Source of the DNA: Caryophanales bacterium UBA6768
GTDB lineage: Bacteria; Bacillota; Bacilli; Bacillales_D; Amphibacillaceae
NCBI GenBank assembly: GCA_002453315.1
Contig: DKGO01000144.1
Span: 1-36,356 of the forward strand
Direction: 5' to 3'
DNA: 36,356 nucleotides
Positions 18,685 to 36,356 of the stretch are shown piece by piece; position 1 is the stretch's first letter; each line of letters opens with the position of its first letter. The position numbers were made by a program, and so were the translations under genes. The notes beneath the pieces were generated by a model. It was not told the DNA's origin. It did no database searches and saw only the letters and a list, made by a program, of their open reading frames with translations.

Positions 18685-19274
18685 TTTTGGATTAATCAAA
18701 GATAAAGTTGACTTAAAGGGATTGGAAGGGTAATTCCTGTCGTATATGATTGTAAGTTATTTTAATAAGAGGATTAATTTAATTGTTTTATTTTTCAGTA
18801 ACTATCCTTATAGAAATCTAATTGGATCAATTTGTTCCGCAATACCATAGTTGTTGGATCTATTAGTATAAGTGGGATTTTGCTTAAGGAATAGACACTA
18901 ATTCGTGTCTAGTGATAGTTGTGAATTTTGAGGGAGTATAAGGTTTCGAAATAGGGGGTTTAGTAAATAATATACGAAGTTGTAGAAACTTTGGGATGCT
19001 GTTGTATTAGATATTGATCATGTTTCGGAAGGATTGCAAGAGTTTTATATTAAAAGGATTTTCACCGTGGGATGTAGCAGAAGGCAGAGTAATTTTATAT
19101 GAAGTTGGTGGAATTGCATCAAGAAATATTGGAGCTAGAATAAATAAATTAGATAAGGAAATGGAAGTTATATGTAATAATGTTTTACATGAAAAGGTGA
19201 TAGTGAATTATTTAAGTGAATGGGAAAATAATTCACAGACATATATGAATCTGGAAATAAAAGAGACAAATTAA
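18685..19274 (+). pseudogene. Decayed inositol-monophosphatase-family gene
   Basis: Pieces of an IMPase homologue can be followed across frames when aligned with the intact gene at 21331. YPYRNLIGS (18803-18829) matches YPKHLLLGE. NTIVVG near 18841 matches the start of NTIWIVDPIDG. LVNNIRSCR (about 18960-18986) matches LVNQIRSTR. LWDAVVLDIDHVSEGLQEFYIK (from 18989) matches LRGSAALEIAHVAEGITDGYIS. GFSPWDVAEGRVILYEVGG (from 19056) matches ELSPWDIAAGMIIIKEVEG. Stops and at least two frameshifts separate the pieces; one is a one-base excess in the A run at 19052-19055. The metal-binding DPIDGT motif is destroyed. The last 86 codons remain open but have no valid start. Confidence 0.8.
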
Positions 19275-19334: not shown

Positions 19335-19346
19335 TTAAGCGTTTAC
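19335..19346. promoter_or_regulatory. LacI-type operator O1
   Basis: TTAAGCGTTTAC differs by one base from the operator at 19489 (TTAAGCGCTTAC). Both are followed by CCTAAA or a close variant. The central CG-step pseudo-palindrome is typical of LacI/GalR-family operators. Confidence 0.55.
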
Positions 19347-19488: not shown

Positions 19489-19500
19489 TTAAGCGCTTAC
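19489..19500. promoter_or_regulatory. LacI-type operator O2
   Basis: TTAAGCGCTTAC contains the perfect ten-base palindrome TAAGCGCTTA. It shares an 11-base core with the operator in front of iolB. Confidence 0.7.
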
Positions 19501-19539: not shown

Positions 19540-20415
19540 TTGGTAAAGGAGGAGAATAATATCACGAAAAAAATATTGTTTGTATCTGATTTAGATGGAA
19601 CCCTTTTAAACAATCAACATGAGGTTAGTGAGAAAAATGTAAAAGCTATTGAAAAGTTTAAATCTAATGGTGGGTTATTTACGTTTGCAACTGGGAGAAT
19701 GGAAGAGACAACTTTACCGTACGTAGATAAGTTAAATATTAATATTCCACTTATTTCTTATAATGGTGCTAGGTTATATTGTCCAATTACCAAAAAAGTA
19801 ATCTTTGAAGAAAGAATGAGTGTACCAGTAGATATTTGGGAACTTATTCTAAAAGTAAAACAACCTATGGGAGTCTTTATATATAAAGATAATCAACCCT
19901 TCGTACTTAAACGAAATGAGATTGTAGAGGAATTTGAAAGAAAAGAAGGATTTACATGTAAAGATGGTAGTCTTGATGACTTTATCGAGGGTTCAATTTC
20001 CAAAATACTCATCATCATGAAAGCGCTATCTGATTCAGAAAAAGTACCAGCTCTTCAGGTACTTGAGGATGAAATAAAAGTCAGTGAATTTTCTTGTGAA
20101 TCAGTTTTTTCTGAAGTAAATTACTTGGAGATTCTTCCAAAAGGTACATCTAAGGGAAAAGGTCTAGCCCGATTAATCGATTATCTTGGAGAAAAGGAAA
20201 TTCATACTATCGCCATTGGGGATAATTTGAACGATATACCGCTTCTTACTGTTGCTAATACCGGAATTGCTGTCCGGAATGCACAATCAAAGTTAAAGGG
20301 GGTCGCTGATTTAGTTTTAGATCAAAATAATGATGAACATGCAATTGCTTATGTCATTGAAAATGTAATTGCCAAAGAAAAGCTAGATCATATTTCACTG
20401 ACAGACAATATGTAG
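19540..20415 (+). CDS. Cof-type HAD-superfamily phosphatase
   Basis: A cytoplasmic haloacid-dehalogenase phosphatase of the Cof/YwpJ type, probably acting on a sugar or cyclitol phosphate. It has motif I SDLDGTLLNN with nucleophile and acid aspartates, the SYNGA motif, a C2-type cap, and motif IV GDNLNDIPLL. The start is a puzzle. The longest frame begins with TTG at 19540, which would translate through AAAGGAGGAG (19545-19554). That ribosome-binding site is perfectly spaced for codon 19561, but the codon is ATC, not ATG. From there the protein would be 284 residues with the DxD at 10-12. It is the first gene of the island, under O1, O2 and cre. Confidence 0.85.
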   Translation: MVKEENNITKKILFVSDLDGTLLNNQHEVSEKNVKAIEKFKSNGGLFTFATGRMEETTLPYVDKLNINIPLISYNGARLYCPITKKVIFEERMSVPVDIWELILKVKQPMGVFIYKDNQPFVLKRNEIVEEFERKEGFTCKDGSLDDFIEGSISKILIIMKALSDSEKVPALQVLEDEIKVSEFSCESVFSEVNYLEILPKGTSKGKGLARLIDYLGEKEIHTIAIGDNLNDIPLLTVANTGIAVRNAQSKLKGVADLVLDQNNDEHAIAYVIENVIAKEKLDHISLTDNM

Positions 20416-20448
20416 ATAAAAATAAAAAATTATTATGGAGTGATTTTA

Positions 20449-21327
20449 ATGAAAATAGGCTTTTCTATTCAAGACCCAGCGTTTAAAAAAAATGATAAGG
20501 TATTACTTGCAAGTCACAATAGTTTTGAAGAATTTATTACATCACTTAAGTCAAAGGGCGTTAAATCCATTGAAATTAGAAAACTTTCAAGGGAACTTGA
20601 TCAGAATACATATGAAGCATATAACAAATCCATCCAAAAAATATGGGATATAGGGTTGGAAATAACGATTCACGGAGATTTAACAGGTGAACTATCTGGG
20701 GATAGATTTGTAGATGTTTACCCATCGATGGAGTATATCTTAGACAATTATAAGAAATACCAAAGTAAACTAGTAATGACGTTACATGCTCTTCAAGAGA
20801 AAAGAGAGCAATCTAAATTTAGTTCTAAGGAACTGAAAGAACAAACTATTGAGATGTTAAATGATTGGACACAAAAGGTAGAATCAGAAAATTTACCAGT
20901 TTACTTTGCTCTTGAAAATAATCGTAGTAAGGAAAAATCTATTGATCCAGGCAACTCCTGTAAAGGGGTGGTGGAGATGGCTGAAAGTGTAGATCATCCT
21001 AATCTTGGTATTTGTTGGGACATGGGACATTTGTATTCAAACCTGTTAGCTGGGACAGAGCTAGAATTAGAATTAGGTGATCTGCCACCTAAGGAATTTT
21101 TGGAAAAGGTATATCACACACATATTCATGGACTTAATTCAGTAGGGGGAACCCATTTTCCATTGACGGAGGAATACACTTTACCAATTGAAAGCTATGT
21201 AGATACCCTGAAAGAACACGGATATGATGGAGCTTATAATCTAGAACTTAGCTTTGATCGGTATAGTAAAGACATGTCTGTTGCTGAAAAAGTCATTGCG
21301 TCCGTGGCAAGATTAAAGGAGTTGTAG
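20449..21327 (+). CDS. Xylose-isomerase-like TIM-barrel protein (sugar phosphate isomerase/epimerase family)
   Basis: A 292-residue AP-endonuclease-2/xylose-isomerase-like TIM barrel. Likely divalent-metal ligands are Glu156 (ALENNRS), Asp191 and His194 (CWDMGH), His225/His227 (THIHG) and Glu266 (NLELS). Family members include inosose isomerase IolI, IolE, IolH and many keto-sugar epimerases. Here it may interconvert an inosose or open-chain sugar, but no specific reaction can be read from the sequence. ATG at 20449 is chosen because GGAG (20437-20440) is eight bases upstream; a GTG at 20440 overlaps that site. The IMPase gene follows after three bases. Confidence 0.82.
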   Translation: MKIGFSIQDPAFKKNDKVLLASHNSFEEFITSLKSKGVKSIEIRKLSRELDQNTYEAYNKSIQKIWDIGLEITIHGDLTGELSGDRFVDVYPSMEYILDNYKKYQSKLVMTLHALQEKREQSKFSSKELKEQTIEMLNDWTQKVESENLPVYFALENNRSKEKSIDPGNSCKGVVEMAESVDHPNLGICWDMGHLYSNLLAGTELELELGDLPPKEFLEKVYHTHIHGLNSVGGTHFPLTEEYTLPIESYVDTLKEHGYDGAYNLELSFDRYSKDMSVAEKVIASVARLKEL

Positions 21328-21330
21328 GTA

Positions 21331-22155
21331 ATGAGTTTAGAAATAGATGAAAAATTCTTTGATCAAGTTTTTTACCAAGCAAAGAAATGGGTATTAGAGG
21401 CAGGGGCAAACATACGGAAAAAAATTAATGAACCAATGGTTATCAATACAAAATCAAACCCAAATGATCTTGTTACAGAAACAGATAGAGAAACGGAAAA
21501 ATTTTTTGCTGATAATATTAGAGGGAAATATCCAAAGCACTTACTTTTAGGGGAAGAAGGCTATGGGGATAATGTCACTTCTTTAAACAATACTATATGG
21601 ATTGTGGATCCAATAGATGGCACAATGAATTTTGTTCATCAAAAAAGAAATTTCGCCATCTCTCTTGCTGTCTTTCACCAAGGAATTGGGGAGTTTGGGT
21701 TAGTTTATGATGTTATGGAAAATATACTCTATAGTGCAAGAAAAAATAGTGGAGCATACAAAAACAATGTTAAATTAAAACCACTGATTCCTAAAAAGCA
21801 AATCGAAAAATCAATCCTATCATTTAAGCATGAATTATTATGTGAAAATGATCATTTTGATCGAAAGGTAATTGAAAATCTTGTTAATCAAATTCGATCT
21901 ACTAGACTACGGGGATCAGCTGCATTAGAAATTGCTCATGTTGCTGAAGGAATAACAGATGGTTATATATCAAAAGAATTATCTCCTTGGGATATTGCTG
22001 CGGGAATGATAATTATAAAAGAGGTTGAAGGAGAAATGACAAGAAGTAATGGAGAGTACATAAAACTTCTTGAAAAAGGATCAATTTTAGTATGCAATCC
22101 AGGTATTCACAAAAAGATTGTATCAGGATACCTAAAGAGTTGGTTAAGAAAATAA
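21331..22155 (+). CDS. Inositol-monophosphatase-family phosphatase
   Basis: A 274-residue magnesium-dependent phosphatase of the IMPase/SuhB family. The metal-site motifs are intact: GEEG (74-77), WIVDPIDGTMNF (90-101, Asp93, Asp96) and SPWDIAAG (218-225, Asp221). It would hydrolyse inositol monophosphate or a related phosphate to the free polyol. AAAGGAG precedes the ATG, and the gap to the isomerase gene is only three bases. The decayed homologue at 18685-19274 lies upstream of the same promoter region. Next to an importer and a complete iol pathway, it is the best candidate for making free inositol inside the cell. IMPase-family enzymes also act on other substrates such as PAP and fructose bisphosphate. 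Confidence 0.88.
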   Translation: MSLEIDEKFFDQVFYQAKKWVLEAGANIRKKINEPMVINTKSNPNDLVTETDRETEKFFADNIRGKYPKHLLLGEEGYGDNVTSLNNTIWIVDPIDGTMNFVHQKRNFAISLAVFHQGIGEFGLVYDVMENILYSARKNSGAYKNNVKLKPLIPKKQIEKSILSFKHELLCENDHFDRKVIENLVNQIRSTRLRGSAALEIAHVAEGITDGYISKELSPWDIAAGMIIIKEVEGEMTRSNGEYIKLLEKGSILVCNPGIHKKIVSGYLKSWLRK

Positions 22156-22364
22156 TCGACTCACTATCTTTTGAAAATATTTAAAGGAGGTATGCAAACT
22201 AAATTTTACTTGACTATTTTATAACAGTTAATGGTTATCACGAAGGGGGTGGGGGAGTGGCTTGAATCAACTAAATATTTTATTAACTTGCAATAATATA
22301 TTTTAAAAGACATGTTTCAGAAGGATTTTAAAGTAAATAAAATTTTATACGGGGAGTGTTTATA

Positions 22365-23585
22365 GTGAAAAAGATAAATAAGGCTGTAATTGGTGTATTG
22401 TTTCTATCTCTTCTTCTTATAATTTCAGCATGTGGAGGAAATAATGATGCCGAAACAAGTAAAGGAAATGCGGATAATAATGAAAATGTGGAAAACGGAA
22501 AGAGTGAAGAAAGTAGTTGGTTAGAAAAAGCAAATTTAGATGCGGATGAACCTATGGATGAACTGTATGAAAAAGCAAAAGAAGAGGGAAAACTAACTGT
22601 CTATTCTTCTACAAGTGCTGTTATGAATGTGGTTGAGAACTTTGAGAAAGACTATCCAGGTATAAAAGTAGAGGCTACTAAATTAAATGACGTGGAAATG
22701 ACAGAAAAAATTAAAAGGGAACAAGAAAGTGAAGTCTATCAAGCGGATTTAACTTTTTCAAGTGGAAATAATGGGGCTTTCCAAAGAGAATTAATTGATG
22801 AGGGTTTACTCCATATTTATAACCCTTACTCGGAAAAATTAATCGAACCATATAATCAGAACCCCCTTTTACAAATTACAGCAGAAGCATATGCAGTAAT
22901 GTATAATACAGATAAAAATGATGGTCCACCTATTGATAATTGGTGGGATTTAACTAAACCTGAATGGGAAGGAAAGGTATTATCAAATGATCCATTGAGT
23001 TCCGCAAATTTATCAAGTCTTTTCCTATCTTTTATGGCTAATCCCGAAGAAATGGCGGATGCATACGAAGAAGAGTTTGGTGAAGAAATTGTTTTAGATG
23101 GTACTAAAAATGCGGGTTATGAATTTGTCAAAAGATTAATGGACAATGGACTAGTTCTATTGAAATCAGGTGGTGATGCAGTAGATGGGGTAGCCCTTTC
23201 AACAGATGACACTCCGCCTTTGGCTATAGCCTCGACAGTATCGCTAAGGGATGTTGTAAATCAGGACTACAATATTGCTATTGTTGAAGATATTAAACCT
23301 AGGGTATCATCCCCAATTTTAAAGAGCTTTACAGTAGCTAATAATGCGGAAAATGTAAATGCTGCTAAACTATTTATTAAATATATGGCAGGTGGAGATG
23401 ATGGAAAAGCATTAGGATTTGAACCACTTAACACACCTGGAACATGGGCATTAAGATCCGATATAGAACAAGATTTTGGCACAATTGTTACAACGTATGA
23501 GGAACTCAACTGGTGGGACAGAGATGACGATTTCATTTATGAAAATACTGGTGAATTAAGAGATTTCCTATTGTCAATTCAATAG
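22365..23585 (+). CDS. ABC transporter substrate-binding lipoprotein (Fbp/Afu type)
   Basis: A 406-residue lipoprotein with a signal ending in ISAC (lipidated Cys23), an acidic/Asn-rich linker (about 24-55), then a family-1/type-2 periplasmic-binding fold. Motifs include KLTVYSSTSAVMNVVENFE, WWDLTKPEWEGKV and GFEPLNTPGTWALR. The class includes ferric-binding FbpA, phosphonate binders, and AfuA, which binds hexose phosphates. The Tyr-Tyr pair that holds iron in FbpA is absent; no YY occurs anywhere in the protein. GTG at 22365 follows GGGGAG with eight-base spacing. The 209-base gap after the IMPase gene allows a separate promoter, but none is clear. Confidence 0.88.
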   Translation: MKKINKAVIGVLFLSLLLIISACGGNNDAETSKGNADNNENVENGKSEESSWLEKANLDADEPMDELYEKAKEEGKLTVYSSTSAVMNVVENFEKDYPGIKVEATKLNDVEMTEKIKREQESEVYQADLTFSSGNNGAFQRELIDEGLLHIYNPYSEKLIEPYNQNPLLQITAEAYAVMYNTDKNDGPPIDNWWDLTKPEWEGKVLSNDPLSSANLSSLFLSFMANPEEMADAYEEEFGEEIVLDGTKNAGYEFVKRLMDNGLVLLKSGGDAVDGVALSTDDTPPLAIASTVSLRDVVNQDYNIAIVEDIKPRVSSPILKSFTVANNAENVNAAKLFIKYMAGGDDGKALGFEPLNTPGTWALRSDIEQDFGTIVTTYEELNWWDRDDDFIYENTGELRDFLLSIQ

Positions 23586-23617
23586 TAACATAATGATATT
23601 AGGTGAAGTAATAGCGG

Positions 23618-23648
23618 ATATCCCCGTAAATCTAATTTACGGGGATAT
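23618..23648 (+). other. Strong intercistronic hairpin after the binding-protein gene
   Basis: A perfect 13-base stem (23618-23630 with 23636-23648) closes a five-base loop. No T run follows, so it probably protects the 3' end of the binding-protein mRNA or causes partial termination. That would give more binding protein than permease. Confidence 0.7.
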
Positions 23649-23817
23649 TAAATATAAAAGCATTATTAAGATAATAAATCCGATTTATATGAAGTATGTA
23701 TTCTATTGGCAATAATTATGAAATAGAAGGGTTATATGGATTATATGCTTTAAAAAATAAAATACTTGAAAGAATGAAGGGTTTACAAAACGTACAATTA
23801 GTATTGGGGGTAAGGGA

Positions 23818-25626
23818 TTGGGATCAAATAAGGGATTGAGAAAAAACCGAATTATTAATTTTTTTAAAGGTGCAATTACAAACCCAATTTATATTTTTAG
23901 TTTTATAGCAATTTCATTTTTGATATACACGGTAATTGTACCATTATTGGAGATTGTAAAAACCACATTCCAATGGAATGTTAGAGATATGGAACCAGAG
24001 GCAGTACCGGGAGAATTCACATTATCTCATTGGATAACCGTATTTTCAAGTGACATAAGTCAAGCTATGCTATATAAACCTATGTTCAATGCGTTAAGTA
24101 TTGGTATTACAGTATCAATTTTTGCTTTGGCGCTAGGTGCTGGTTTGGCGTGGTTAATTGTTAGAACAGATTTACCGTTTAAAAAGACAATTGGTTTTCT
24201 GGTTATTTTACCTTACATGTTACCATCTTGGTTTAAAGCCTTTGTATGGTTAATCGTTTTCAAAAATGACAAAATAGGTGGTGGAGGTGGACTATTCCAG
24301 TATATTACTAATATCGCCCCTCCGGATTGGTTGGCATATGGGTTTTTACCAATAGTCCTAGCGCTATCTACACACTATTATGTATTTTCATACTTATTAG
24401 TAGGAGCAGCTTTAGGTTCGATGGGAAGTAGCTTAGAGGAATCAGCCGGAATACTTGGGGCAAGTCGATTTAGAACAATGAGGAAGATTACATTTCCACT
24501 AGTTTTACCAGCTATTCTATCCGCATTTATTCTCATTATCTCTAAAGCAATTGGTTCGTTTGGTGTTCCTGCATTTTTAGGGCTTCCCGTTAGGTACTAT
24601 ACACTTTCAACAATGATATATAGTAATATTGGAAGTGGAAGACCAACTGAGGGATATATATTGTCCTTAGTTTTAATTGTTTTAGCAAGTTTAATTATTT
24701 ATTTCAACCAAAAAATACTTGGAAAAAGAAATTATGAGACCGTAGGCGGTAAGGATTCCAGCAATCGATTAACACCACTCGGAAAATGGAAAATACCTGC
24801 ACTTGCAGGTATAGGTAGCTTTATTATGCTAATTAGTGTTGTCCCTTTATTTCTATTATTTTGGCAAACACTAATGCTAAGAACGGGAGATTATAGTTTT
24901 AAAAATTTAACTTTACATTATTGGATCGGTGATTCAATTCCAAATATTGCTGCGGGTGCAGTTGGTGTACTTAAAAATGACACAATTATAAATGCATTTA
25001 AAAATTCCATTATACTAGCATTAACAGCATCAGTAGTAGCTGCATTAATTGGATTAATACTTGGTTATGTAATAACAAGAGGAAAAGGTTTACCCTCTAA
25101 ATTAATTGACCAAATGTCCTTTTTACCATACTTAATACCTGGAATTGCTTTAGGAGGAATCTTCCTTTCCATGTATTCTAAACCAACTCTTTTGCTCCCA
25201 TCTTTATATGGGACATTAACTATCCTTATTTTAATAACTGTAGTCAAAGAACTACCATTTGCAGCAAGAGCAGGTACTAGTACAATGATTCAAATTGGAG
25301 GAGAGTTGGAAGAAGCCGCTAAGGTTTCAGGGGCCTCTTGGTTAAAAAGATTTATGAAAGTTTTACTGCCTCTAAGTAGAAAAGGACTTTTAACTGGATT
25401 TATTTTAGTATTTATAAGTGGTATGAAAGAATTAGACCTAATAATTATGTTAGTAACGCCAGCTACCAGTACCTTAACTACACTTACTTTTGACTTTCAA
25501 GAAGGTGGATACCCTCAATTAGCCAATGCGGTTGTTGCAATTATTATTGTAGTGATTATTGTTGTTTATATTTTAACTACCACTATAGGAAAAACAGATA
25601 TTTCACGTGGAATTGGAGGTAAATAG
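23818..25626 (+). CDS. ABC transporter permease, fused double-domain (FbpB/AfuB type)
   Basis: A 602-residue membrane protein made of two tandem binding-protein-dependent permease domains, about 12 helices. Each half has an EAA loop that contacts the ATPase: EESAGILGASRFRTMRK (about 206-222) and EEAAKVSGASWLKRFMK (about 500-516). Fused permeases of this kind are usual in the Fbp/Afu and phosphonate groups. The start is TTG at 23818, seven bases after GGGGG. The ATPase gene follows one base after its stop. Confidence 0.9.
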   Translation: MGSNKGLRKNRIINFFKGAITNPIYIFSFIAISFLIYTVIVPLLEIVKTTFQWNVRDMEPEAVPGEFTLSHWITVFSSDISQAMLYKPMFNALSIGITVSIFALALGAGLAWLIVRTDLPFKKTIGFLVILPYMLPSWFKAFVWLIVFKNDKIGGGGGLFQYITNIAPPDWLAYGFLPIVLALSTHYYVFSYLLVGAALGSMGSSLEESAGILGASRFRTMRKITFPLVLPAILSAFILIISKAIGSFGVPAFLGLPVRYYTLSTMIYSNIGSGRPTEGYILSLVLIVLASLIIYFNQKILGKRNYETVGGKDSSNRLTPLGKWKIPALAGIGSFIMLISVVPLFLLFWQTLMLRTGDYSFKNLTLHYWIGDSIPNIAAGAVGVLKNDTIINAFKNSIILALTASVVAALIGLILGYVITRGKGLPSKLIDQMSFLPYLIPGIALGGIFLSMYSKPTLLLPSLYGTLTILILITVVKELPFAARAGTSTMIQIGGELEEAAKVSGASWLKRFMKVLLPLSRKGLLTGFILVFISGMKELDLIIMLVTPATSTLTTLTFDFQEGGYPQLANAVVAIIIVVIIVVYILTTTIGKTDISRGIGGK

Positions 25627-25627
25627 G

Positions 25628-26743
25628 ATGAGTGAAATTATATTAAATAAGGTAAATAAATATTTTGGTGATAACCATGTATTGAAAAATATTAAGTTAA
25701 ATATAAAAGATGGTGAATTTATGACATTATTAGGCCCCTCTGGTTGTGGAAAAACAACTTTATTACGTTCAATTGCGGGCCTTGAAAATCCGGAAGGTGG
25801 AATTATCACTATAGGAGATAATGATGTTGTTAATGGGGAAGAAAAATACTACGCCCCTCCGGGTAAAAGGGGCCTAAACCTAGTGTTTCAAAGCTATGCA
25901 CTTTGGCCACATATGACAGTTTTCGAAAATGTAGAATTTGGGCTGAGCGTAAAAAAAATGGGTAAGTCCGAAATTAGGGAAAAGGTTGAAGAAGCACTTG
26001 AAAGATTACAGATTAATCAATTAATAGATAGATATCCCTCTGAGTTATCAGGTGGACAACAGCAGCGAGTTGCTATTGCTAGAGCAATTGTTACAGAACC
26101 AAGAGTCCTTCTACTAGATGAGCCCCTTTCTAATCTTGATGCAAAATTAAGGGTAGAAATGAGAACCGAATTAAAGAGGTTGCACCATGATTTAAAAACA
26201 ACAATTATTTATGTGACTCATGATCAAGTTGAAGCATTAACGCTTTCTAGTAGAATAGCAGTATTTTTTGAGGGGGAGTTGGTACAGGTAGATACACCAC
26301 AGGAACTTTATCGAAAACCCATCGATCTGAGAGTTGCGGATTTTATAGGTAATCCGACAATAAACTTTATTAAAGCATCAGGTAACTATGAGGATGGAAG
26401 TCTACACATTAATTCCCCATTGGGTAAAATTCAATTTGAATGTGAAAATAACTTATCTACAAATTTGACAATGGCATTGAAGCCCGAAGATATTATCATC
26501 CATAATGAAAAGATAGAAAACAGTATTGAATGTAATGTTTATTCGGTACTCCCTGCAGGATCGGAAACTTTAATTCATTTAACAACCGGAAATGAAGAAT
26601 TAATTGTAAAGGTAATGGGAGAAGTAAATTTTGATATGGATAGTAAAGTTTGGATAACTTTTAAAGAACATAAAATATGTATTTATGATGATAATGGGAA
26701 GATGATTCCTTTTAATGGTGTAAAGGTATACAAACACTCTTGA
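25628..26743 (+). CDS. ABC transporter ATP-binding protein (Fbp/Pot type)
   Basis: A 371-residue ATPase. Walker A GPSGCGKT (37-44), Q-loop Gln88, signature LSGGQQQR (140-147), Walker B LLLDE (161-165) and switch His198 (THDQ) are all present, so it is catalytically intact. The C-terminal third (about 240-371) is a TOBE-type regulatory domain as in PotA/FbpC. ATG at 25628 lies eight bases after GGAGG, which itself sits in the last codons of the permease. It completes the importer with the two upstream genes. Confidence 0.92.
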   Translation: MSEIILNKVNKYFGDNHVLKNIKLNIKDGEFMTLLGPSGCGKTTLLRSIAGLENPEGGIITIGDNDVVNGEEKYYAPPGKRGLNLVFQSYALWPHMTVFENVEFGLSVKKMGKSEIREKVEEALERLQINQLIDRYPSELSGGQQQRVAIARAIVTEPRVLLLDEPLSNLDAKLRVEMRTELKRLHHDLKTTIIYVTHDQVEALTLSSRIAVFFEGELVQVDTPQELYRKPIDLRVADFIGNPTINFIKASGNYEDGSLHINSPLGKIQFECENNLSTNLTMALKPEDIIIHNEKIENSIECNVYSVLPAGSETLIHLTTGNEELIVKVMGEVNFDMDSKVWITFKEHKICIYDDNGKMIPFNGVKVYKHS

Positions 26744-26813
26744 TAATATTATCTAACTTGAAACTTCAGATAATAAATAATAATCTGTAAAATAAGATGT
26801 ACGGGGTGATTTA

Positions 26814-27836
26814 ATGGAAAAAATAAACGTCGGTATAATCGGTGCGGGTAGAATTGGTCAGCTACATGCAAACAACATATTAAAATCGGATTTATTAGAC
26901 CTAAAGGCGATTACCGATATTAAAATAGATCATTTAAGAAATACAAATATTGAAAAACAGGTATCTGTCATTACAACTGATGCAAATAAAATATTTGCTG
27001 ATCCAGAAATAGATGCAGTCATCATTTGTTCTTCAACAAATACACATACAGACTATATAAAAAGAGCTGCCTATGCTGGTAAACATATATTTTGTGAAAA
27101 GCCGATTAGTTTTAATTTGAGGGATACAAAGGCTGCATTACAAGTAGTGGAAGATGCCGGTGTTAAATTTCAATCCGGATTTAACCGTCGATATGATAAT
27201 AATTTCCGAAAAGTTTATGAAAGTGTACGTGCTAATAAAGTGGGGGATCCCCATATCATTAAAATCACTTCACGTGACCCTGAAATCCCATCCGAAGAAT
27301 ATGTGAAAAATTCCGGGGGAATGTTTATGGATATGACGATACATGACTTTGATATGGTTCGATATTTGGCTGGAAGTGAAGTAACTGAAGTAAGTGTGAA
27401 AGCAGCAAATCTAGTTGACCCGTTGTTTAGAAAATATGATGATGTTGATACGGCTATTATTACGTTAACATTCGAAAATGGAGTCATTGCAGTCATTGAC
27501 AATAGTAGAAAAGCTGTTTATGGATATGATCAACGGATTGAGGTTTTTGGTAGTGAAGGGGTTGTTACAGCGGGTAATGAATATAAATCAAATGTGCAAA
27601 TTTCAACAAAAGATACTTCAGTATTTGATAATCCTAAATATTTCTTTTTAGACAGATATAAAGATGCATATATTGAAGAAATCAATTCATTTGCGGAAGC
27701 ATTACTCTGCAACAAGCCATTATCATGTACAGGTGAAGATGGATATAAAGCGGAGTTATTAGCCCATGCTACACATATTTCATGGAAAGAAAACCGATCT
27801 GTAAAAGTTTCAGAATTGGAATTAGTGAACACGTAA
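26814..27836 (+). CDS. iolG: Inositol 2-dehydrogenase (Gfo/Idh/MocA family)
   Basis: Oxidises myo-inositol (and often D-chiro-inositol) with NAD to 2-keto-myo-inositol, the first step of the iol pathway. The 340-residue protein has the Rossmann motif GIIGAGRIGQLHA (7-19), EKP (95-97) with the catalytic Lys96, and the active-site pair Asp173 and His177 in FMDMTIHDFDM. These match Lys97/Asp172/His176 of B. subtilis IolG. GGGGTG precedes the ATG. It lies between the ABC genes and iolB, linking uptake to catabolism. A related dehydrogenase of another cyclitol isomer cannot be excluded. Confidence 0.88.
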   Translation: MEKINVGIIGAGRIGQLHANNILKSDLLDLKAITDIKIDHLRNTNIEKQVSVITTDANKIFADPEIDAVIICSSTNTHTDYIKRAAYAGKHIFCEKPISFNLRDTKAALQVVEDAGVKFQSGFNRRYDNNFRKVYESVRANKVGDPHIIKITSRDPEIPSEEYVKNSGGMFMDMTIHDFDMVRYLAGSEVTEVSVKAANLVDPLFRKYDDVDTAIITLTFENGVIAVIDNSRKAVYGYDQRIEVFGSEGVVTAGNEYKSNVQISTKDTSVFDNPKYFFLDRYKDAYIEEINSFAEALLCNKPLSCTGEDGYKAELLAHATHISWKENRSVKVSELELVNT

Positions 27837-27910: not shown

Positions 27911-28708
27911 GTGTCAAAATTACTTTTGAAATCTCAAAGTCCCAAACCGAACGGAAATATTTTGAATGTTACTCCAGAATCAGCTAATTGGGAGTATGTA
28001 GGGTTTCAAGTTTATCAATTAAAAAAGGGAAATACCCTTGAAAAATTAACGAAGGAGAATGAAGTTTGTCTCGTTCTTTTAACAGGAAAGGCGAATGTTC
28101 AAACAAATAAAGAGAGGTTTTCCGAAATTGGTAACCGGATGAGTGTATTTGAGAAGGTCCCACCATTTTCAATATATGTGCCAAATGATGATTCCTATCT
28201 TGTTGAAGCATTAACAGATGTTGAAATCGCAATTTGTTTGGCACCTGGGAAAGGGAATCATAAAGCACGTTTAATTGCTCCGTCTGATGTCGGGGTGGAA
28301 GAACGTGGTTCTGGCAAAATGAGTCGGAAAATCCACAATATTTTACCAGAAGACAAAGGGGCAGATAGTTTACTAGTTGTGGAAGTTTTTACCCCAGACG
28401 GGAATACATCCAGCTATCCACCACATAAGCATGATGAATTAAATTTACCAAATGAATCCTATTTGGAGGAAACATATTATCATCAAATCAATCCTGAACA
28501 AGGATTTGCATTTCAAAGGGTTTATAACGATGACCGGAGTTTGGATGAAACGCTATGTGTTGAAAATAAAAGTGTCGTTCTAGTACCAGAAGGATACCAT
28601 CCAGTGTCCTGTGTTCCAGGTTATGAATCCTATTATTTGAATGTTATGGCGGGACCTGTAAGAACTTGGAAGTTTCATAATGATCCAAACCATGAATGGT
28701 TATTTTAG
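27911..28708 (+). CDS. iolB: 5-deoxy-glucuronate isomerase
   Basis: Converts 5-deoxy-D-glucuronate, made by IolD, into 2-deoxy-5-keto-D-gluconate. The 265-residue bicupin protein has the metal-binding YPPHKHDE (about 173-180) and EETYYHQINPEQGF segment of IolB. VLVPEGYHPVSCVPGYESYYLN near the C-terminus is strongly conserved. The start is GTG after GGAGG. It has its own promoter/operator and begins the downstream half of the island. Confidence 0.95.
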   Translation: MSKLLLKSQSPKPNGNILNVTPESANWEYVGFQVYQLKKGNTLEKLTKENEVCLVLLTGKANVQTNKERFSEIGNRMSVFEKVPPFSIYVPNDDSYLVEALTDVEIAICLAPGKGNHKARLIAPSDVGVEERGSGKMSRKIHNILPEDKGADSLLVVEVFTPDGNTSSYPPHKHDELNLPNESYLEETYYHQINPEQGFAFQRVYNDDRSLDETLCVENKSVVLVPEGYHPVSCVPGYESYYLNVMAGPVRTWKFHNDPNHEWLF

Positions 28709-28801: not shown

Positions 28802-29305
28802 GTGAATTATTTATTGTTTTTTTTAAATATTGAAGGTGAACTATATATACGGATATTATTAGGTGCAGTTTTAGGTTTTTTAATTGGAATGGATAGGGGA
28901 TATAAAAATAAACCTGCAGGGGTAAAAACGTTTATGTTTGTAACCGTAGCATCTACTTTGTTAACAATTATCTCCATTGAAAGTGTAGGGAGATACGGAG
29001 AAATTAATCATTTAGTCAGGATGGACCCACTTCGACTTGCAGCACAAATTGTCTCTGGTTTAGGTTTTTTAGGGGCGGGAGTAATTTTAAAAGACGGTCT
29101 AGAAGTTAGGGGGTTAACAACGGCTGCAATGATTCTTTTTGCCGGTGGTGTTGGTATAGGAATTGGTGCAGGATATTACGGTGTAGTAATTTTTGCAATG
29201 TTTAGTTCATTAATACTTGCACGAATTGGCGAAAAGCTAGAAAAAGTATTAAGAAAAAAAGAAATCATTGATCCACCTTCTAATAGCAATCGCTCGGAAG
29301 GATAG
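28802..29305 (+). CDS. MgtC/SapB-family membrane protein
   Basis: A 167-residue protein with about four to five membrane helices and the family signature segments GAVLGFLIGMDRG, LGFLGAGVIL and RGLTTAA. It lacks the C-terminal ACT-like domain of full-length Salmonella MgtC. Family members affect growth at low magnesium, phosphate balance and membrane potential. It is not a known part of inositol catabolism. The GTG start overlaps an ATG that is immediately followed by TGA (ATGTGA at 28800-28805), both downstream of GGGAGG (28787-28792). It sits between iolB and iolC in the same orientation. Confidence 0.88.
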   Translation: MNYLLFFLNIEGELYIRILLGAVLGFLIGMDRGYKNKPAGVKTFMFVTVASTLLTIISIESVGRYGEINHLVRMDPLRLAAQIVSGLGFLGAGVILKDGLEVRGLTTAAMILFAGGVGIGIGAGYYGVVIFAMFSSLILARIGEKLEKVLRKKEIIDPPSNSNRSEG

Positions 29306-29356: not shown

Positions 29357-30361
29357 ATGTATCAATTAGACATTCCTAAAAATCGTTCCATCGACATCAT
29401 TGGGATTGGTCGGTTATGTATTGATTTAAATGCAGATCAAATTAATCGACCAATGGAGGAAACTTCCTCATTTACAAAATATGTAGGTGGTTCACCGGCG
29501 AATATAGCTATTGGTGCAGCCCGTCTGGGACTAAAAAGTGGCTTTATCGGTAAAGTAGCAGATGATCAGATGGGACGATTTATCGTCCAATATTTGCAAG
29601 AAAACGAAATAGATATATCTGAAGTTTCAGTCGATAACACTGGTGCAGTAACAGGTTTAGCATTTACGGAAATTAAAAGCCCTGAAGACTGTAGTATATT
29701 AATGTATCGGGATAATGTGGCTGATTTAATGCTAGAAACGACTGATGTATCGGAAGATTACATTAGCCAGACGAAGGTACTTCTTGTTTCAGGAACAGCC
29801 CTTGCTGCAAGTCCATCCAGAGAAGCCGTATTTTTGGCTTTAGATTATGCAAGAAAGCACGATGTTATTGTCGTTTTTGATTTAGATTATCGTCCATATA
29901 CTTGGAATTCTGATAAGGAAACAGCAGTTTATTACAATTTAGTAGCGGAAAAATGTGACGTAATTATCGGTACAAGAGAAGAATTTGATATGATGGAACA
30001 GTTTGAAAAAGGGAAACAGACCGATCAACAAACAGCACAAAAATGGTTTGATTTTCAAGCAGAAATAGTCGTTATCAAACATGGGGGAGATGGTTCCATC
30101 ACATATACGAAGAACGGTGATGCTTACCAAGGTGGAACATTTAAAACAAAGGTATTAAAAACATTTGGTGCAGGAGATTCATATGCATCTGCGTTTATAT
30201 ATAGCTTAATGCAACAGTGGGAAATTCCAAAAGCAATGGACTATGGAAGTGCTTCAGCAACGATTGTAATTTCTAAACATAGTTGTTCTGAAGCAATGCC
30301 AACATTAGAAGAAATTGAACGTTTTATAGAGACAGCAGAAAAAATTGATGTCAATGTTTAA
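29357..30361 (+). CDS. iolC: 5-dehydro-2-deoxygluconokinase
   Basis: Phosphorylates 2-deoxy-5-keto-D-gluconate to its 6-phosphate using ATP. The 334-residue PfkB-family kinase has the first signature GGSPANIAIGAARLG (44-58) and the second GAGDSYAS (271-278), with catalytic Asp274. The N-terminal IGIGRLCIDLN is typical of IolC. GGGGGGAG precedes the ATG. Its product is the substrate of the next gene, iolJ. Confidence 0.94.
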   Translation: MYQLDIPKNRSIDIIGIGRLCIDLNADQINRPMEETSSFTKYVGGSPANIAIGAARLGLKSGFIGKVADDQMGRFIVQYLQENEIDISEVSVDNTGAVTGLAFTEIKSPEDCSILMYRDNVADLMLETTDVSEDYISQTKVLLVSGTALAASPSREAVFLALDYARKHDVIVVFDLDYRPYTWNSDKETAVYYNLVAEKCDVIIGTREEFDMMEQFEKGKQTDQQTAQKWFDFQAEIVVIKHGGDGSITYTKNGDAYQGGTFKTKVLKTFGAGDSYASAFIYSLMQQWEIPKAMDYGSASATIVISKHSCSEAMPTLEEIERFIETAEKIDVNV

Positions 30362-30395: not shown

Positions 30396-31253
30396 TTGAT
30401 CGTTACTTTAAATGATGTATTGAAATATACGATGGAAAAATCTTATGCTGTACCTGCATTTAACGTGTTTGGATATGAAGATGCAAAAGCAGTAATAGAA
30501 GCAGCGGAGGAACTAAAGGCTCCAGTCATTTTAGCAACAAATAAAGTAGCGATTTCCCATATGTCGATGCCTATTTTAGGAAATATGTTATCCAAATTGG
30601 CGGAAAATGCGACTGTCCCTATTGTTGTTCACTTAGATCATGGAAGTGACTATGATACAGTTGTCTCTGCATTAAAGTCTGGATATAGCTCTGTTATGTA
30701 CGATGGCTCCCAATTACCTTTAGAGGAAAATATCCAAACGACAAAAGAAATTGTGAAAGTTTCCCATGCTTTTGGAATTCCGGTTGAAGCAGAAATTGGT
30801 TCTGTCGGTTATACCGATCCAAATATGGGAATGAAAGCTACGTTAACAGATCCGGCGGAAGCAGAGGAATTTTCAAAACGTACCGGGGTTGATGCATTAG
30901 CAGTTGCAGTGGGTACTTTACACAGGATGGAAGAACAGACAGCTGATCTTCGATTCGATCTTATCGAAGAAATAGAGAGAAGAATAGATGTACCACTTGT
31001 CATGCATGGTTCTACTGGAATTCCAGATGAGGATTTAAAAAAAATTACAAAGACGAATTTTGGAAAGGTGAATATTGGTACTGCTCTTCGGATGGCATTT
31101 GGAAATACGCTTAGAAAAGAGATAGAAGAACAACCTGAAACATTTGACCGTATGGAATTATTTAAAGAACCGATGAAAGCCGTAAAGGAAGCAGCAATGG
31201 AAAAAATAAAACTATTGAATGCGGATCAATATATGTCATTGATAAAGTCATAA
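30396..31253 (+). CDS. iolJ: 6-phospho-5-dehydro-2-deoxy-D-gluconate aldolase (class II)
   Basis: Splits 2-deoxy-5-keto-gluconate 6-phosphate into dihydroxyacetone phosphate and malonate semialdehyde. The 285-residue class II aldolase has zinc ligands in HLDHGSD (79-85; His82), His176 and His204 (VMHGSTG), and the EAEIGSVG motif (131-138). The start is TTG with a GAGGAGG site upstream. A generic fructose-bisphosphate aldolase is the alternative, but the place between iolC and iolA favours IolJ. Confidence 0.92.
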   Translation: MIVTLNDVLKYTMEKSYAVPAFNVFGYEDAKAVIEAAEELKAPVILATNKVAISHMSMPILGNMLSKLAENATVPIVVHLDHGSDYDTVVSALKSGYSSVMYDGSQLPLEENIQTTKEIVKVSHAFGIPVEAEIGSVGYTDPNMGMKATLTDPAEAEEFSKRTGVDALAVAVGTLHRMEEQTADLRFDLIEEIERRIDVPLVMHGSTGIPDEDLKKITKTNFGKVNIGTALRMAFGNTLRKEIEEQPETFDRMELFKEPMKAVKEAAMEKIKLLNADQYMSLIKS

Positions 31254-31334: not shown

Positions 31335-32795
31335 ATGAGTAAAACAACCGTCCAAACACTGAAAAACTTTATTGGTGGAGAATGGATTCAGGCAAAAACA
31401 GATAAAACAGAGCCTGTATATAATCCGGCAACAGGGGAAGTCATCGCCCATGTCCCGATTTCAACGAAAGAAGATTTAGATCATGCTGTACATGTTGCAA
31501 ATAAAGCATTCCAAACTTGGAAAGAACTAGCGGTACCAAGAAGGGCACGGATTTTATTTAAATTTCATCAATTATTAGTTGAAAATTGGGATGACCTTGC
31601 GAAAATGATCACGATTGAAAATGGGAAAAATTTTAACGAATCACATGGTGAAGTGTTACGTGGTATCGAATGTGTGGAATTTGCTGCAGGTGCACCAACG
31701 TTAATGATGGGAGATAATTTAGCATCGATCGCAACTGGACTTGAGTCTGGTGTCTATCGTTATCCAATTGGAGTTGTCGGGGGAATTACACCATTTAATT
31801 TCCCTATGATGGTGCCATCATGGATGTTTCCAATGGCGATTGTCACTGGAAATACATTTGTGTTAAAACCATCTGAACGTACTCCATTACTTGCTAATCA
31901 ACTTGCAGAATTACTTGATGAGGCAGGTTTACCCAAAGGTGTATTTAATATTGTACATGGGGCACATGATATTGTGAATGGACTACTAGATCATGAAAAG
32001 ATAAGTGCTATTTCATTTGTTGGTTCCCAGCCAGTTGCCGAATATGTGTACAAAAGGGGAACCGCTAATTTAAAACGAGTTCAAGCACTTGCAGGAGCAA
32101 AAAATCATTCTATCGTTTTAAATGATGCCAATTTAGATAATGCATCTACACAAATTTTAAATGCGGCTTTTGGTTCTGCTGGAGAACGGTGTATGGCATG
32201 TGCCGTAGTGGCAGTGGAGGACTCAGTTGCGGATGAATTCATTGAACAGTTAGTTCAAAAAGCAAACGAAGTGAAAATAGGAAATGGATTAGATGAAGGA
32301 ATCTTTTTGGGTCCAGTTATTCGAGAAGAGCATAAAGCTCGTACATTGAATTATATTGAAATTGGGGAAAAAGAAGGGGCAACTCTTATACGAGATGGTC
32401 GTAAAGATAAAAGTGCTCAATCAGGCGGTTATTATGTAGGCCCGACTATTTTTGATAATGTGACAAGTGAAATGAAAATATGGCAAGATGAAATATTCGC
32501 TCCAGTCTTATCAATTAGTAGGGTGAAAGATTTAGACGCGGCGATTAATCTAGCGAATACATCAACTCTGGCAAATGGGGCTTGTATTTTCACAAAAGAT
32601 GGTGGTAGTGTACGTACATTTCGTGAAAATATTGATGCAGGTATGTTAGGTGTTAATATAGGTGTTCCTGCTCCGATGTCTTTTTTCCCTTTTTCAGGTT
32701 GGAAAGATTCTTTCTACGGTGACTTACACGCGAACGGGAAAGATGGGGTAGAGTTTTACACACGAAAAAAAGTAGTGACAGCACGTTGGGTCTAA
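31335..32795 (+). CDS. iolA: Methylmalonate-semialdehyde/malonate-semialdehyde dehydrogenase (acylating)
   Basis: Converts malonate semialdehyde with CoA and NAD to acetyl-CoA and CO2, the last step of inositol breakdown. The 486-residue aldehyde dehydrogenase has catalytic Cys286 in [10 protein letters not shown] (279-288), the [15 protein letters not shown] motif typical of the CoA-acylating MMSDH group (154-168), and [19 protein letters not shown] precedes the ATG. It sits after iolJ, which makes its substrate. Confidence 0.95.
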
Positions 32796-32881: not shown

Positions 32882-34807
32882 ATGAGATTAACGACGGCAC
32901 AAGCACTAATAAAGTTTTTAAATCAACAATATGTTCGTGTAAATAATAAAGAACAAAAATTGTTTAAAGGGGTTTTCACAATCTTTGGCCATGGAAATGT
33001 ACTCGGGATAGGTCAAGCATTAGAAGAAGACCCAGGTGATTTAGAAGTATACCAAGGTAGAAATGAACAAGGAATGGCCCATGCTGCAACTGCCTTTGCG
33101 AAGCAAAATCATCATCGTCAGCTAATTGCTTGTACTTCTTCTGTGGGACCTGGATCAGCTAATATGGTAACCGCAGCTGCGACCGCTACTGCGAATAATA
33201 TACCTCTCCTTTTATTGCCAGGGGACACGTTTGCGAGTCGTCAGCCTGACCCTGTATTGCAGCAAATAGAACAGCCTTATGATGCAACAATTTCGACAAA
33301 TGATGCTTTTCGTCCGGTGAGTAAATATTGGGATCGAATTAATCGCCCAGAGCAACTCATGTCAGCAATGATTAATGCAATGAGGGTGTTAACGAACCAA
33401 GGAGAAACTGGAGCAGTTACTATTTCATTACCACAAGACGTACAAGGGGAAGCATATGATTATCCCGATTACTTTTTTAAAAAGCGGGTACATTATTTCT
33501 CACAACAAAAACCGCAAGAACAAGAAATTGCTACAGTAGTTAAACTAATGAAGGTAAAGAAAAAACCGCTAATTATTTGCGGTGGAGGTGTCCGTTATTC
33601 GGAAGCGGCACAAACTTTGGAAGAATTTTCAGAGAAATTTAATATTCCATTCGCGGAAACTCAAGCTGGGAAAAGTGCTATACCAAGTACTCATCCATTA
33701 AATCTTGGTGGGATTGGTGTGACTGGAAATGCTGCAGCAAATGAAATTGCCAAACAAGCGGATGTAATTATCGGTGTTGGTACACGATTTACTGATTTCA
33801 CAACCGCATCTAAACAGCTTTTCCAAAATAAAGAGGTCGATTTTGTGACGATTAATTTATCGGAATATCATGCTTCTAAGTTTGATGCCGTTAAAATTGT
33901 TGCAGATGTCAAGGAGGGACTCCTTACACTTACTAGACAGCTTGATAAAATTGCATATCAATCTCAATATAATGGGGAAATTGAACAAGCAAAGGTAGCA
34001 TGGGCTGAGGAATTATTTCGATTGTATGCCACTGATTATACATCGGAAGATTTCCAACCGGAAGTTGCGGGTCATTTAGATAATGAGCTAGAGGACTATG
34101 AAAAGGCATTACAGTCATGCCTAACCCAAACCGCTGTTATTGGAAAAATTAATGAAATCATCGAAGAAGATTCCATTATCATTGGTTCTTCGGGCAGCTT
34201 GCCGGGAGATTTACAGAGAATGTGGGTTGCGAAAAAGCCAAACACTTACCATATGGAGTACGGTTACTCTTGTATGGGTTATGAGATTTCAGGGGCTTTA
34301 GGAGTAAAAATGGCTGAACCGAACAAAGAGGTATATTCGATGGTGGGTGATGGAAGTTATATGATGCTTCACTCTGAATTAATTACTAGTATACAAGAGA
34401 ACAAGAAAATTAATATCCTTTTATTTGATAATGCTGGATTTGGTTGTATTAATAATCTACAAATGGGTAATGGGATGGGAAGTATCGGTACGGAATTTCG
34501 TAAAAGAAGTGAAAAAACTAATCAATTAACGGGAGAAGTCATTGTGACGGATTTTGCTCATAATGCTACTGCTTATGGAGCAAAAACTTATCGTGTGAGA
34601 ACGATGGGGGAACTTACGGAAGCATTAGAAGATGCAAAAAAACAAACGGTGTCTACTTTATTAGATATAAAAGTTTTACCAAAAACCATGACCGACGGTT
34701 ATGGTGGTTGGTGGAATGTTGGTGTTGCTGAAGTTTCGGAAAAAAGGAAAATCCAACAAGCTTTCACAGACAAGAAGGAGCAATTACAGACAGCGAGAAA
34801 ATACTAG
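32882..34807 (+). CDS. iolD: 3D-(3,5/4)-trihydroxycyclohexane-1,2-dione acylhydrolase
   Basis: A thiamine-diphosphate enzyme that opens the ring of the trihydroxycyclohexanedione made by IolE, giving 5-deoxy-D-glucuronate. The 641-residue protein has the catalytic glutamate region [10 protein letters not shown] (Glu62) and the ThDP/metal motif beginning GDGSYMM at residues 489-491. Length and the [16 protein letters not shown]-terminus are typical of IolD. GAGGTG precedes the ATG. iolE follows 14 bases after its stop. Confidence 0.95.
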
Positions 34808-34821
34808 GTAGGTGAGGATAT

Positions 34822-35718
34822 TTGTTTAAAAAGGATTCCATTAAACTAGGAATTGCACCAATTGCATGGACAAATGATGACATGCCGTACTTGGGAGCAG
34901 AGAATACGTTTGAGCAATGTATTAGTGAAATGGCACTAGCAGGATTTTCTGGTACAGAAGTCGGCAATAAATTCCCCCGTAGCATTAAAAAATTAAAAAA
35001 ATCACTACAATTAAGAAATATGGAAATTGCTAGTGCTTGGTATAGTGCTTACTTAACTACAAAACCATATGAAGAAATAAAAGAAAGTTTTATAAAACAT
35101 AGAGACTTTTTATATGAAATGGGGGCTAAAGTCATTGTTGTTTCTGAACAAGGACACAGTATTCAAGCAGATCCATCAAAGGCATTATTTTTGGAAAAAC
35201 CTTTTTTTAATGATTCAGAGTGGGATAAACTTGCATATGGTTTAAACTCGTTAGGGGAATTGGCGCAAGAAAAAGGAATGAAGGTTGTTTACCATCACCA
35301 TATGGGTACAGGTGTGCAAACTACTGAGGAAATTGATCGATTGTTATCCTCGACAAATGATGAATTAGTTTATTTACTGTATGATACTGGCCATCTCTTT
35401 TTCTCTGGAGAGGATCATATGTATATTTTAAAACGTTATGTATCTAGAATAAAACATGTCCATTTAAAAGATGTCCGTGATGACGTTGCAAAAAAGGTTA
35501 AGGAAAAAGGTTTAAGTTTTTTAGATGGGGTTCGGGAAGGAGTCTTTACAGTTCCGGGAGATGGAGTGATAGATTTTACCGAAGTATTCGAAGTATTAGC
35601 CCTATCTAATTATAAAGGTTGGATGATTGTGGAGGCAGAACAAGATCCAGCAAAGGCAAATCCGCTTCAATATGCACAAATCGCTAGGGATTATATAAAG
35701 AAAACAGCGGGAGTATGA
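34822..35718 (+). CDS. iolE: Myo-inosose-2 dehydratase
   Basis: Dehydrates 2-keto-myo-inositol (from IolG) to the trihydroxycyclohexanedione used by IolD. The 298-residue TIM-barrel protein of the xylose-isomerase-like superfamily carries LGIAPIAWTNDDMP at the N-terminus, VVYHHHMGTGVQT, LLYDTGHLFFSGED and RIKHVHLKDVR, with likely metal ligands among these Asp/His residues. The start is TTG with GGTGAGG upstream. Its stop codon overlaps the next start codon by one base (TGATG), so the following dehydrogenase is probably translationally coupled. Confidence 0.95.
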   Translation: MFKKDSIKLGIAPIAWTNDDMPYLGAENTFEQCISEMALAGFSGTEVGNKFPRSIKKLKKSLQLRNMEIASAWYSAYLTTKPYEEIKESFIKHRDFLYEMGAKVIVVSEQGHSIQADPSKALFLEKPFFNDSEWDKLAYGLNSLGELAQEKGMKVVYHHHMGTGVQTTEEIDRLLSSTNDELVYLLYDTGHLFFSGEDHMYILKRYVSRIKHVHLKDVRDDVAKKVKEKGLSFLDGVREGVFTVPGDGVIDFTEVFEVLALSNYKGWMIVEAEQDPAKANPLQYAQIARDYIKKTAGV

Positions 35719-36356
35719 TGGATATGAAAGAAGTTAAAGTTGGTATTGTTGGAATTGGGCGGTTGGGATCGCAACATGCGGAAAATCTAGCTTATAGAAT
35801 TCAAAATTGCAAGCTAACAGCCGTATGCAGTATAAGGGAAGAGGAAGTTAAAAATGCACAGGATAAGTGGGATATTCCTTATTCGTATACTGATTATGAT
35901 AAAATGCTAGAAAATAAGGATCTTGATGCAATATTCATTTCTTCCCCATCTAGTAATCATTGTCATCAAATTAAAAAAGCACTAGAAGCAGGTTTTCATG
36001 TTTTTAGTGAAAAACCGCTAGGACTATATTTGGATGAAGCCTATGACGTTCGAGAAAAGGTTAACAAATTTAAGGATCAAATATTTATGTTAGGGTTTAT
36101 GAGGAGATATGATCAATCGTATTTGGAAGCAAAGCACCATATAGATGAAGGTGCTATAGGAGAGCCTATTTATATACGTTGCTATGGGCTAGATCCAGCT
36201 AAACAAATGGATAGGTTTCTTAAATATGCAAAAAAGAATGATAGTGGTGGATTATTTTTAGATATGGCTATTCATGACTTTGATTTAGCTCGTTGGTATT
36301 TAGGAACGGAAGCCCGGAAAGTATGGGCGATTGGCGGCAATTATACTCGCCCAGAA
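35718..36356 (+). CDS. Gfo/Idh/MocA-family dehydrogenase, partial at window end (IolG/IolX-like)
   Basis: The frame opens with ATG at 35718 and runs without a stop to the window edge (213 codons seen). It has the Rossmann motif GIVGIGRLGSQHAENL, SEKPLG with the catalytic lysine, and FLDMAIHDFDLARWYLG with the active-site Asp/His pair. It is a second inositol-type dehydrogenase distinct from the one at 26814. Candidates are scyllo-inositol or another stereoisomer dehydrogenase, or a D-chiro/1-keto form. It belongs to the iol operon through its overlap with iolE. Confidence 0.88.
   Translation, partial: MDMKEVKVGIVGIGRLGSQHAENLAYRIQNCKLTAVCSIREEEVKNAQDKWDIPYSYTDYDKMLENKDLDAIFISSPSSNHCHQIKKALEAGFHVFSEKPLGLYLDEAYDVREKVNKFKDQIFMLGFMRRYDQSYLEAKHHIDEGAIGEPIYIRCYGLDPAKQMDRFLKYAKKNDSGGLFLDMAIHDFDLARWYLGTEARKVWAIGGNYTRPE

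Follow-up and report, generated by a model that had tools for sequence, protein, structure and literature searches.

The ATP-binding cassette (ABC) importer encoded directly upstream of the inositol catabolic (iol) genes of Caryophanales bacterium UBA6768 probably takes up an inositol phosphate, which would then be dephosphorylated stepwise by a Cof-type HAD phosphatase, a TIM-barrel protein and an inositol monophosphatase (IMPase) before catabolism by the iol enzymes. The stretch analyzed, hereafter the window, comprises positions 1 to 36,356 of contig DKGO01000144.1 (36,356 nucleotides). As a preliminary description of this DNA had stated, the genes for these three proteins, for a substrate-binding lipoprotein, a fused permease and an ATPase, and for IolG and the rest of iol are all intact and lie in this order on the plus strand (Table 1). 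The downstream genes constitute an iol operon, since iolG, iolB, iolC, iolA, iolD and iolE each score above their curated cut-offs. The support for inositol-phosphate import comes from gene context.

In the proposed scheme, the lipoprotein, permease and ATPase would import one or more inositol phosphates, either phytate or, more likely in the present case, the lower inositol phosphates that remain after phytases of others have acted. Inside the cell, the Cof phosphatase, the TIM barrel (a proposed metal phosphoesterase) and the IMPase would remove phosphates stepwise, possibly in that order, and the resulting myo-inositol would enter the pathway IolG-IolE-IolD-IolB-IolC-IolJ-IolA. The presumed LacI-type regulator, whose gene would lie outside the window, would act on palindromes in front of the module and in the iolG-iolB gap. 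Additionally, MgtC, the product of a gene in the iolB-iolC gap, may adjust the magnesium or phosphate balance during uptake of a metal-chelating, phosphate-rich substrate. Import, dephosphorylation and oxidation by IolG had already been suggested in the preliminary description, and phytase linkage, shared palindromes and a sister operon lend that route strong support; as the source, phytate and its partial breakdown products are likelier than the glycerophosphoinositol also considered there.

The module recurs in other genera, more than chance would allow. An alignment of 37 binding proteins served to scan genome contigs, and the 80 best of the 108 matches confirmed gave 77 loci, in which open reading frames (ORFs) were labelled by BLAST to the window proteins and then clustered; for 18 of 22 chosen clusters, a single representative was scanned against Pfam. 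Operon runs with a binding protein or permease are present in 76 loci, and these runs include the TIM barrel in 16 cases, the Cof phosphatase in 14, MgtC in 14 and the IMPase in 11; MgtC is thus a member of the module. For instance, L018, from a Pseudogracilibacillus bin, has the order MgtC, Cof, TIM barrel, PTP-like phytase, binding protein, permease, ATPase, IMPase, iolG, B, C, J and A, a near-match of the window's operon (55%, 63% and 72% identity for Cof, TIM barrel and IolG) in which a phytase occupies the position of the window's IMPase. Similarly, L014 (Paenibacillus rigui) has beta-propeller phytase, LacI, PTP-like phytase, binding protein, TIM barrel, permease, ATPase, MgtC, Cof, IMPase, iolD, iolE and iolC, and L002 has LacI, Cof, binding protein, TIM barrel, permease, ATPase and MgtC, with iolG, J, E and D on the opposite strand about 1.2 kb downstream. 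In the relative L001, an intact IMPase gene stands upstream of Cof where the window has a decayed remnant. The order phosphatase-importer-iol, which was to be sought in other genomes, is therefore found almost unchanged in L018, but iol-labelled genes are in the run of only 5 of the 76 loci (L001, L014, L018, L019 and L038, the last resting on a 25% match).

A strong indication of the substrate's nature is the recurrent linkage of the transporter to phytases. Judged by their scanned representatives, cluster c8 consists of PF14566 PTP-like phytases (20 members, spread over 14 of the 77 loci, all 20 keeping the HCRxGxGR loop) and cluster c14 of PF02333 beta-propeller phytases (9 members, each in a different one of the 77 loci), and the distance from a phytase to the nearest binding-protein or permease ORF is 0-5.3 kb. 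Genome-wide searches covered the genomes of the first 40 loci for PF14566 and those of 38 of the 77 loci for PF02333. Of 38 genomes, 16 have PF14566, at 24 places in all, and of 34 genomes, 11 have PF02333, at 13 places; when mapped from coordinates, 18 of the 24 and 9 of the 13 places are inside transporter loci. The reverse search, starting from phytases in 296 genomes of the taxonomic order of G004, gave any PF14566 match in 44 genomes and a clear match (E <= 2.7e-13) in 18, the other 26 being set aside as partial-family matches, mostly of about 148 amino acids with E values of 1e-6 to 1e-3. A PTP-like phytase adjoins the transporter in 16 of the 18. Ten of the 18 genomes had been part of the first set, and the eight fetched afresh comprise six with the transporter (L108-L113) and two without (L114 and L115); as three of the six are or look like genomes of the first scan (L026 in G024, L041 and L045), the count for wholly new genomes is 3 of 5.

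In a midpoint-rooted tree of 68 permeases, that of the window clusters with five Bacillaceae or Bacilli rows, all from TIM-bearing loci (support 100/100). The sister of this clade is a group that includes a Paenibacillus clade with TIM barrel and PTP-like phytase and a clade with PHP-family genes, and a spirochaete clade with beta-propeller phytase lies further out. With this rooting, phytase linkage brackets the window's clade, because the flanking clades are phytase-bearing. The L018 permease is placed in a phytase-bearing clade although its operon is otherwise window-like, which suggests an exchange of transporters of similar purpose; its branch is long and the placement unsure.

LacI-type palindromes are likewise shared between the window and its relatives. 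The window has the perfect palindrome TTAAGCGCTTAA in its iolG-iolB gap, and the exact sequence TTAANCGNTTAA is present in the corresponding gap of L001 and L018 and, elsewhere, twice before the Cof gene in L001, before the binding-protein gene in L011, and before both the beta-propeller phytase gene and iolD in L014. Eight of the nine exact sites in the 77 loci are intergenic and seven are beside genes of the inositol-phosphate system, the other two being in L015 and L029. Compared with single-base shuffles, which give rough expectations for a pattern chosen after the sequence was seen, the window has one exact site against 0.07 expected and all 77 loci nine against 2.4; one-mismatch palindromes number 6 in the window against 2.3, and those with two mismatches show no excess (20 against 18.3). 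A LacI-family cluster (c4) is present in 15 operon runs. No LacI- or DeoR-type regulator was found among the 26 of 36 window ORFs scanned against families (eight of them against NCBIfam alone), where the ORF at 17346 gave a weak Myb-like match. CcpA, itself a LacI-family protein, could also read such palindromes.

Some results count against the proposed scheme. No phytase was found among the scanned window ORFs. Additionally, neither PF14566 nor PF02333 was found in the four genomes searched of the window's permease clade (G001, G002, G003 and G006); these were the two phytase families searched genome-wide. Lastly, the fold of the lipoprotein fits iron, citrate and sugar-phosphate binders alike. 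Given that neither phytase family was found in the window or in the genomes searched of its own clade, the window's importer may take up lower inositol phosphates.

The phytases themselves bear on what the relatives import. A simple hydropathy test, as distinct from a signal-peptide prediction, gave a strongly hydrophobic N-terminus for 8 of 9 beta-propeller phytases and none for 19 of the 20 phytases of PTP-like type; the medians of the maximal hydropathy over 12 residues are 2.85 and 0.53, respectively. The single PTP-like exception, in L005, looks like an ORF over-extended upstream by ORF calling. The PTP-like phytases of these operons thus seem to have no signal peptide and may be cytoplasmic. 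If so, the importer would have to take in a substrate with several phosphates. It is therefore conceivable, at somewhat less than an even chance, that the transporter family imports intact phytate or other highly phosphorylated inositols, possibly as metal chelates, that cytoplasmic PTP-like phytase starts the dephosphorylation in phytase-bearing relatives, and that the form in the window feeds iol without a phytase of its own.

The TIM-barrel gene had been described as that of an isomerase. Its position before the importer stands, but the label may not fit, as the protein looks more like a metal phosphoesterase judging from its invariant residues. In 42 sequences, H78, H116, E159, D194, H197, H226, H228, H230, H239 and E269 are invariant. 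The protein has the TIM barrel and E-D-H-E metal site of the PF01261 superfamily that includes CbiR, endonuclease IV and IolI, and this site aligns with IolI; the invariant H78, H116, H228, H230 and H239 come in addition to it, and at the first two of these IolI has F and P. Endonuclease IV has a three-metal ligand set with two extra histidines after strands 3 and 4, and most of these positions seem to have a counterpart in the order of the sequence. The match to CbiR is weak (E 1e-6, 28.5 bits against a cut-off of 105). The fold comparison is headed by epimerases with xylose isomerases close by, and endonuclease IV is not among the 50 matches listed, which excludes nothing. The family is rare, and in the two orders searched it nearly always occurs with the transporter or a phytase: it is in 15 of the 296 genomes at E <= 1e-25, and 14 of these 15 belong to the set of 18 with a clear phytase match (hypergeometric 1.4e-19, uncorrected for kinship); it was also found in 2 of 397 genomes of the order of G002, both places being within known transporter loci (L002 and L004). 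The one TIM genome outside the phytase set, G245, has a 35% relative in a different setting, with no transporter in the 19.9 kb fetched. At L116 7059-7940, a distant TIM relative (35%) has neighbours that by eye resemble sulfatase-type and PEP-mutase-type proteins.

The same superfamily, with the phosphodiester-hydrolysing CbiR and endonuclease IV, and the two histidines missing from IolI would also suit import of a phosphodiester of inositol, for example glycerophosphoinositol or a cyclic phosphate; the TIM barrel would then open the diester bond and the IMPase would complete the breakdown. This is unlikely, as phytases recur in the operons of relatives and no glycerophosphodiesterase family was found among the 18 scanned cluster representatives.

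The importer itself is of the Fbp/Afu class. The lipoprotein has a lipobox (ISAC) and scores over the cut-offs of PF13416, PF13343 and PF13531, the permease has two BPD domains and the ATPase bears a TOBE domain, whereas the scores for the 2-aminoethylphosphonate importer PhnS2/U2/T2 (29, 147 and 335 bits) are below the NCBIfam equivalog cut-offs of 393, 593 and 458. The system could therefore be read as an importer of iron, a metal chelate or another sugar phosphate that merely adjoins iol. The nearest PDB sequences of the lipoprotein are entries of metal-citrate-binding MctA, followed by a glucose 6-phosphate binder and ferric-binding proteins, and in the fold comparison binders of iron, metal-citrate, glucose 6-phosphate and pyridoxal phosphate are close together, so that no substrate is singled out. 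The lipoprotein has the conserved basic residues K118, K207, K259, R298, R316, K338 and R367. An adjacent tyrosine pair is the Fe3+-binding motif of FbpA, although some iron binders do not use it; the window lipoprotein has none, as is the case for 28 of 37 aligned rows including its own, and in the other 9 the pair is at scattered positions. This observation and the conserved association with phytase, IMPase and Cof genes, joined by iol genes in some loci, make this reading quite improbable. An importer of free inositol or another unphosphorylated cyclitol, with the phosphatases serving otherwise, has a precedent in the ABC importers for free inositol of other bacteria and would fill the place of the inositol transporter otherwise not seen in the window, but it is very improbable given three phosphatase-type genes in a module that recurs with phytases and, in 71 of 76 loci, has no iol genes in the same run.

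Inositol-phosphate import would extend what is known of related systems. AfuA and P5PA show that the same fold carries phosphorylated ring compounds (PMC4546632, PMC8427247), in line with the statement in the preliminary description that AfuA-type proteins can bind hexose phosphates. His205, Asp206 and Glu229 make the sugar contacts of AfuA (PMC4546632). AfuABC of Actinobacillus, an importer of hexose and heptose 6-phosphates, and the pyridoxal phosphate system P5PA share 18-20% identity with the window's in structural alignments, and differ in that the permease halves are fused in the window and the neighbours are phosphatase, iol and, in relatives, phytase genes. MctA, the metal-citrate binder of an ABC importer (7f6e and mutants), is the best sequence and Foldseek match to the lipoprotein (20-22% identity); its ligand is a polyanion in the form of a metal chelate, and an inositol phosphate could be bound in the same way, although citrate is unphosphorylated. 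With the iol operon of the Bacillus subtilis type, the window has iolG, B, C, J, A, D and E in common. It differs in the importer-phosphatase module in front, in the LacI-type palindromes, and in having no transporter of IolT or IolF size and, among the scanned ORFs, no IolR. The earlier statement that IolT and IolF are not seen thus holds for the window, but the operon continues past iolE, beyond the window's end, into a dehydrogenase-like frame.

Table 1. Features of the operon and of the sequence before it.
Feature	Position	Strand	Basis or remark
Decayed second IMPase remnant, C-terminal third only	18951..19223	+	tblastn with window IMPase: residues 181-271 of 274, 37% identity, E 1.7e-14
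LacI-type palindrome TTAAGCGTTTAC, one mismatch	19335..19346	none	before Cof gene
LacI-type palindrome TTAAGCGCTTAC, one mismatch	19489..19500	none	before Cof gene
Cof-type HAD phosphatase, start codon uncertain	19540..20415	+	TIGR00099 171 bits (cut-off 137); DLDGT and GDNLND
TIM barrel PF01261, proposed metal-dependent phosphoesterase	20440..21327	+	Pfam 7e-16; model pLDDT 96
IMPase-family phosphatase	21331..22155	+	PF00459 6e-60; best PDB match 3t0j (inositol monophosphatase), E 9e-63
Substrate-binding lipoprotein, Fbp/Afu class	22356..23585	+	lipobox ISAC; PF13416 2.9e-10; start probably GTG at 22365
Permease, two fused transmembrane halves	23818..25626	+	two stretches of PF00528 (BPD_transp_1); PhnU2 147 bits (cut-off 593, not reached)
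ABC ATPase with TOBE domain	25607..26743	+	ABC_tran and TOBE_2; Walker A, LSGGQ, Walker B
iolG, inositol 2-dehydrogenase	26814..27836	+	TIGR04380 439 bits (cut-off 355)
Perfect LacI-type palindrome TTAAGCGCTTAA	27880..27891	none	iolG-iolB gap
iolB	27911..28708	+	TIGR04378 360 bits (cut-off 205)
mgtC, MgtC/SapB family membrane protein, short form	28802..29305	+	PF02308 7e-31
iolC	29357..30361	+	TIGR04382 423 bits (cut-off 300)
iolJ-type class II aldolase	30396..31253	+	TIGR00167 257 bits (cut-off 216); other aldolase models shown are below equivalog cut-offs
iolA	31335..32795	+	TIGR01722 602 bits (cut-off 449)
iolD	32882..34807	+	TIGR04377 964 bits (cut-off 715)
iolE	34822..35718	+	TIGR04379 422 bits (cut-off 290)
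Second Gfo/Idh-like dehydrogenase frame, cut by window end	35715..36356	+	overlaps iolE stop; kind assigned by eye

Several further details of the window were recorded. For the Cof gene, the TTG listed as its start is upstream of the best Shine-Dalgarno-like stretch, AAAGGAGG (19545-19552); within 19540-19576, translation may really begin at the TTG of 19576 or at a non-AUG codon around 19561-19564. The IMPase has the motifs GEE, DPIDGT and WDxAA. An inverted repeat, ATATCCCCGTAAAT and then ATTTACGGGGATAT (23618-23648), was seen by eye 3' of the lipoprotein gene and might hold lipoprotein mRNA above permease mRNA. The window's MgtC has 167 amino acids and those of the fetched loci 227-266 in 14 of 15 cases and 161 in the remaining one; the C-terminal part of the window protein seems to be missing. 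An Rfam Bacillaceae-1 RNA is at 4911-4976 (72 bits).

Among the relatives, a PHP-family gene is present in 18 of 76 runs and never together with the TIM barrel, and the two may therefore do a similar job. A sister transporter branch has a PHP gene and an RpiR/SIS-type regulator (L015-L017, L022, L028, L031, L033-L036, L042, L044, L046, L052 and L053), and no phytase cluster member was found in these loci. Eight spirochaete loci (L054-L057, L061, L062, L065 and L072) combine the transporter with a beta-propeller phytase, with a phosphohexomutase-like gene and a 6-bladed-propeller-like lipoprotein in 7 of 8 each and a different TIM barrel (c13) in 5 of 8. In L019 and L025, the transporter is accompanied by a Kelch/purple-acid-phosphatase-like protein, an Exo_endo_phos-like protein and a PfkB kinase, and L019 additionally has an IolG relative.

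In the usual account of how bacteria use phytate, it is dephosphorylated outside the cytoplasm, and phosphate and inositol are then taken up. The literature searched, which mostly excluded subscription papers, gave no ABC importer of phytate or inositol phosphates in bacteria, and novelty in print is thus not established. The main text of a large iol survey, which calls phytate the main phosphorus store of plants, contains neither 'ABC transport' nor 'phosphatase' (PMC9430895). Similarly, phytate degradation in Mitsuokella shares the course from phytate to inositol and on to inositol catabolism, and the available text names no ABC importer (PMC7618129). What is new here is the phytase linkage, the shared palindromes, MgtC and the TIM barrel as members, and the possible import of phytate in some relatives. 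If inositol-phosphate import is correct, a dedicated importer would be a second, private route to phytate. It would also explain a class of 'iron' transporters adjoining phytases, and would hint at what a rare TIM-barrel family does and at the part that MgtC plays in these operons.

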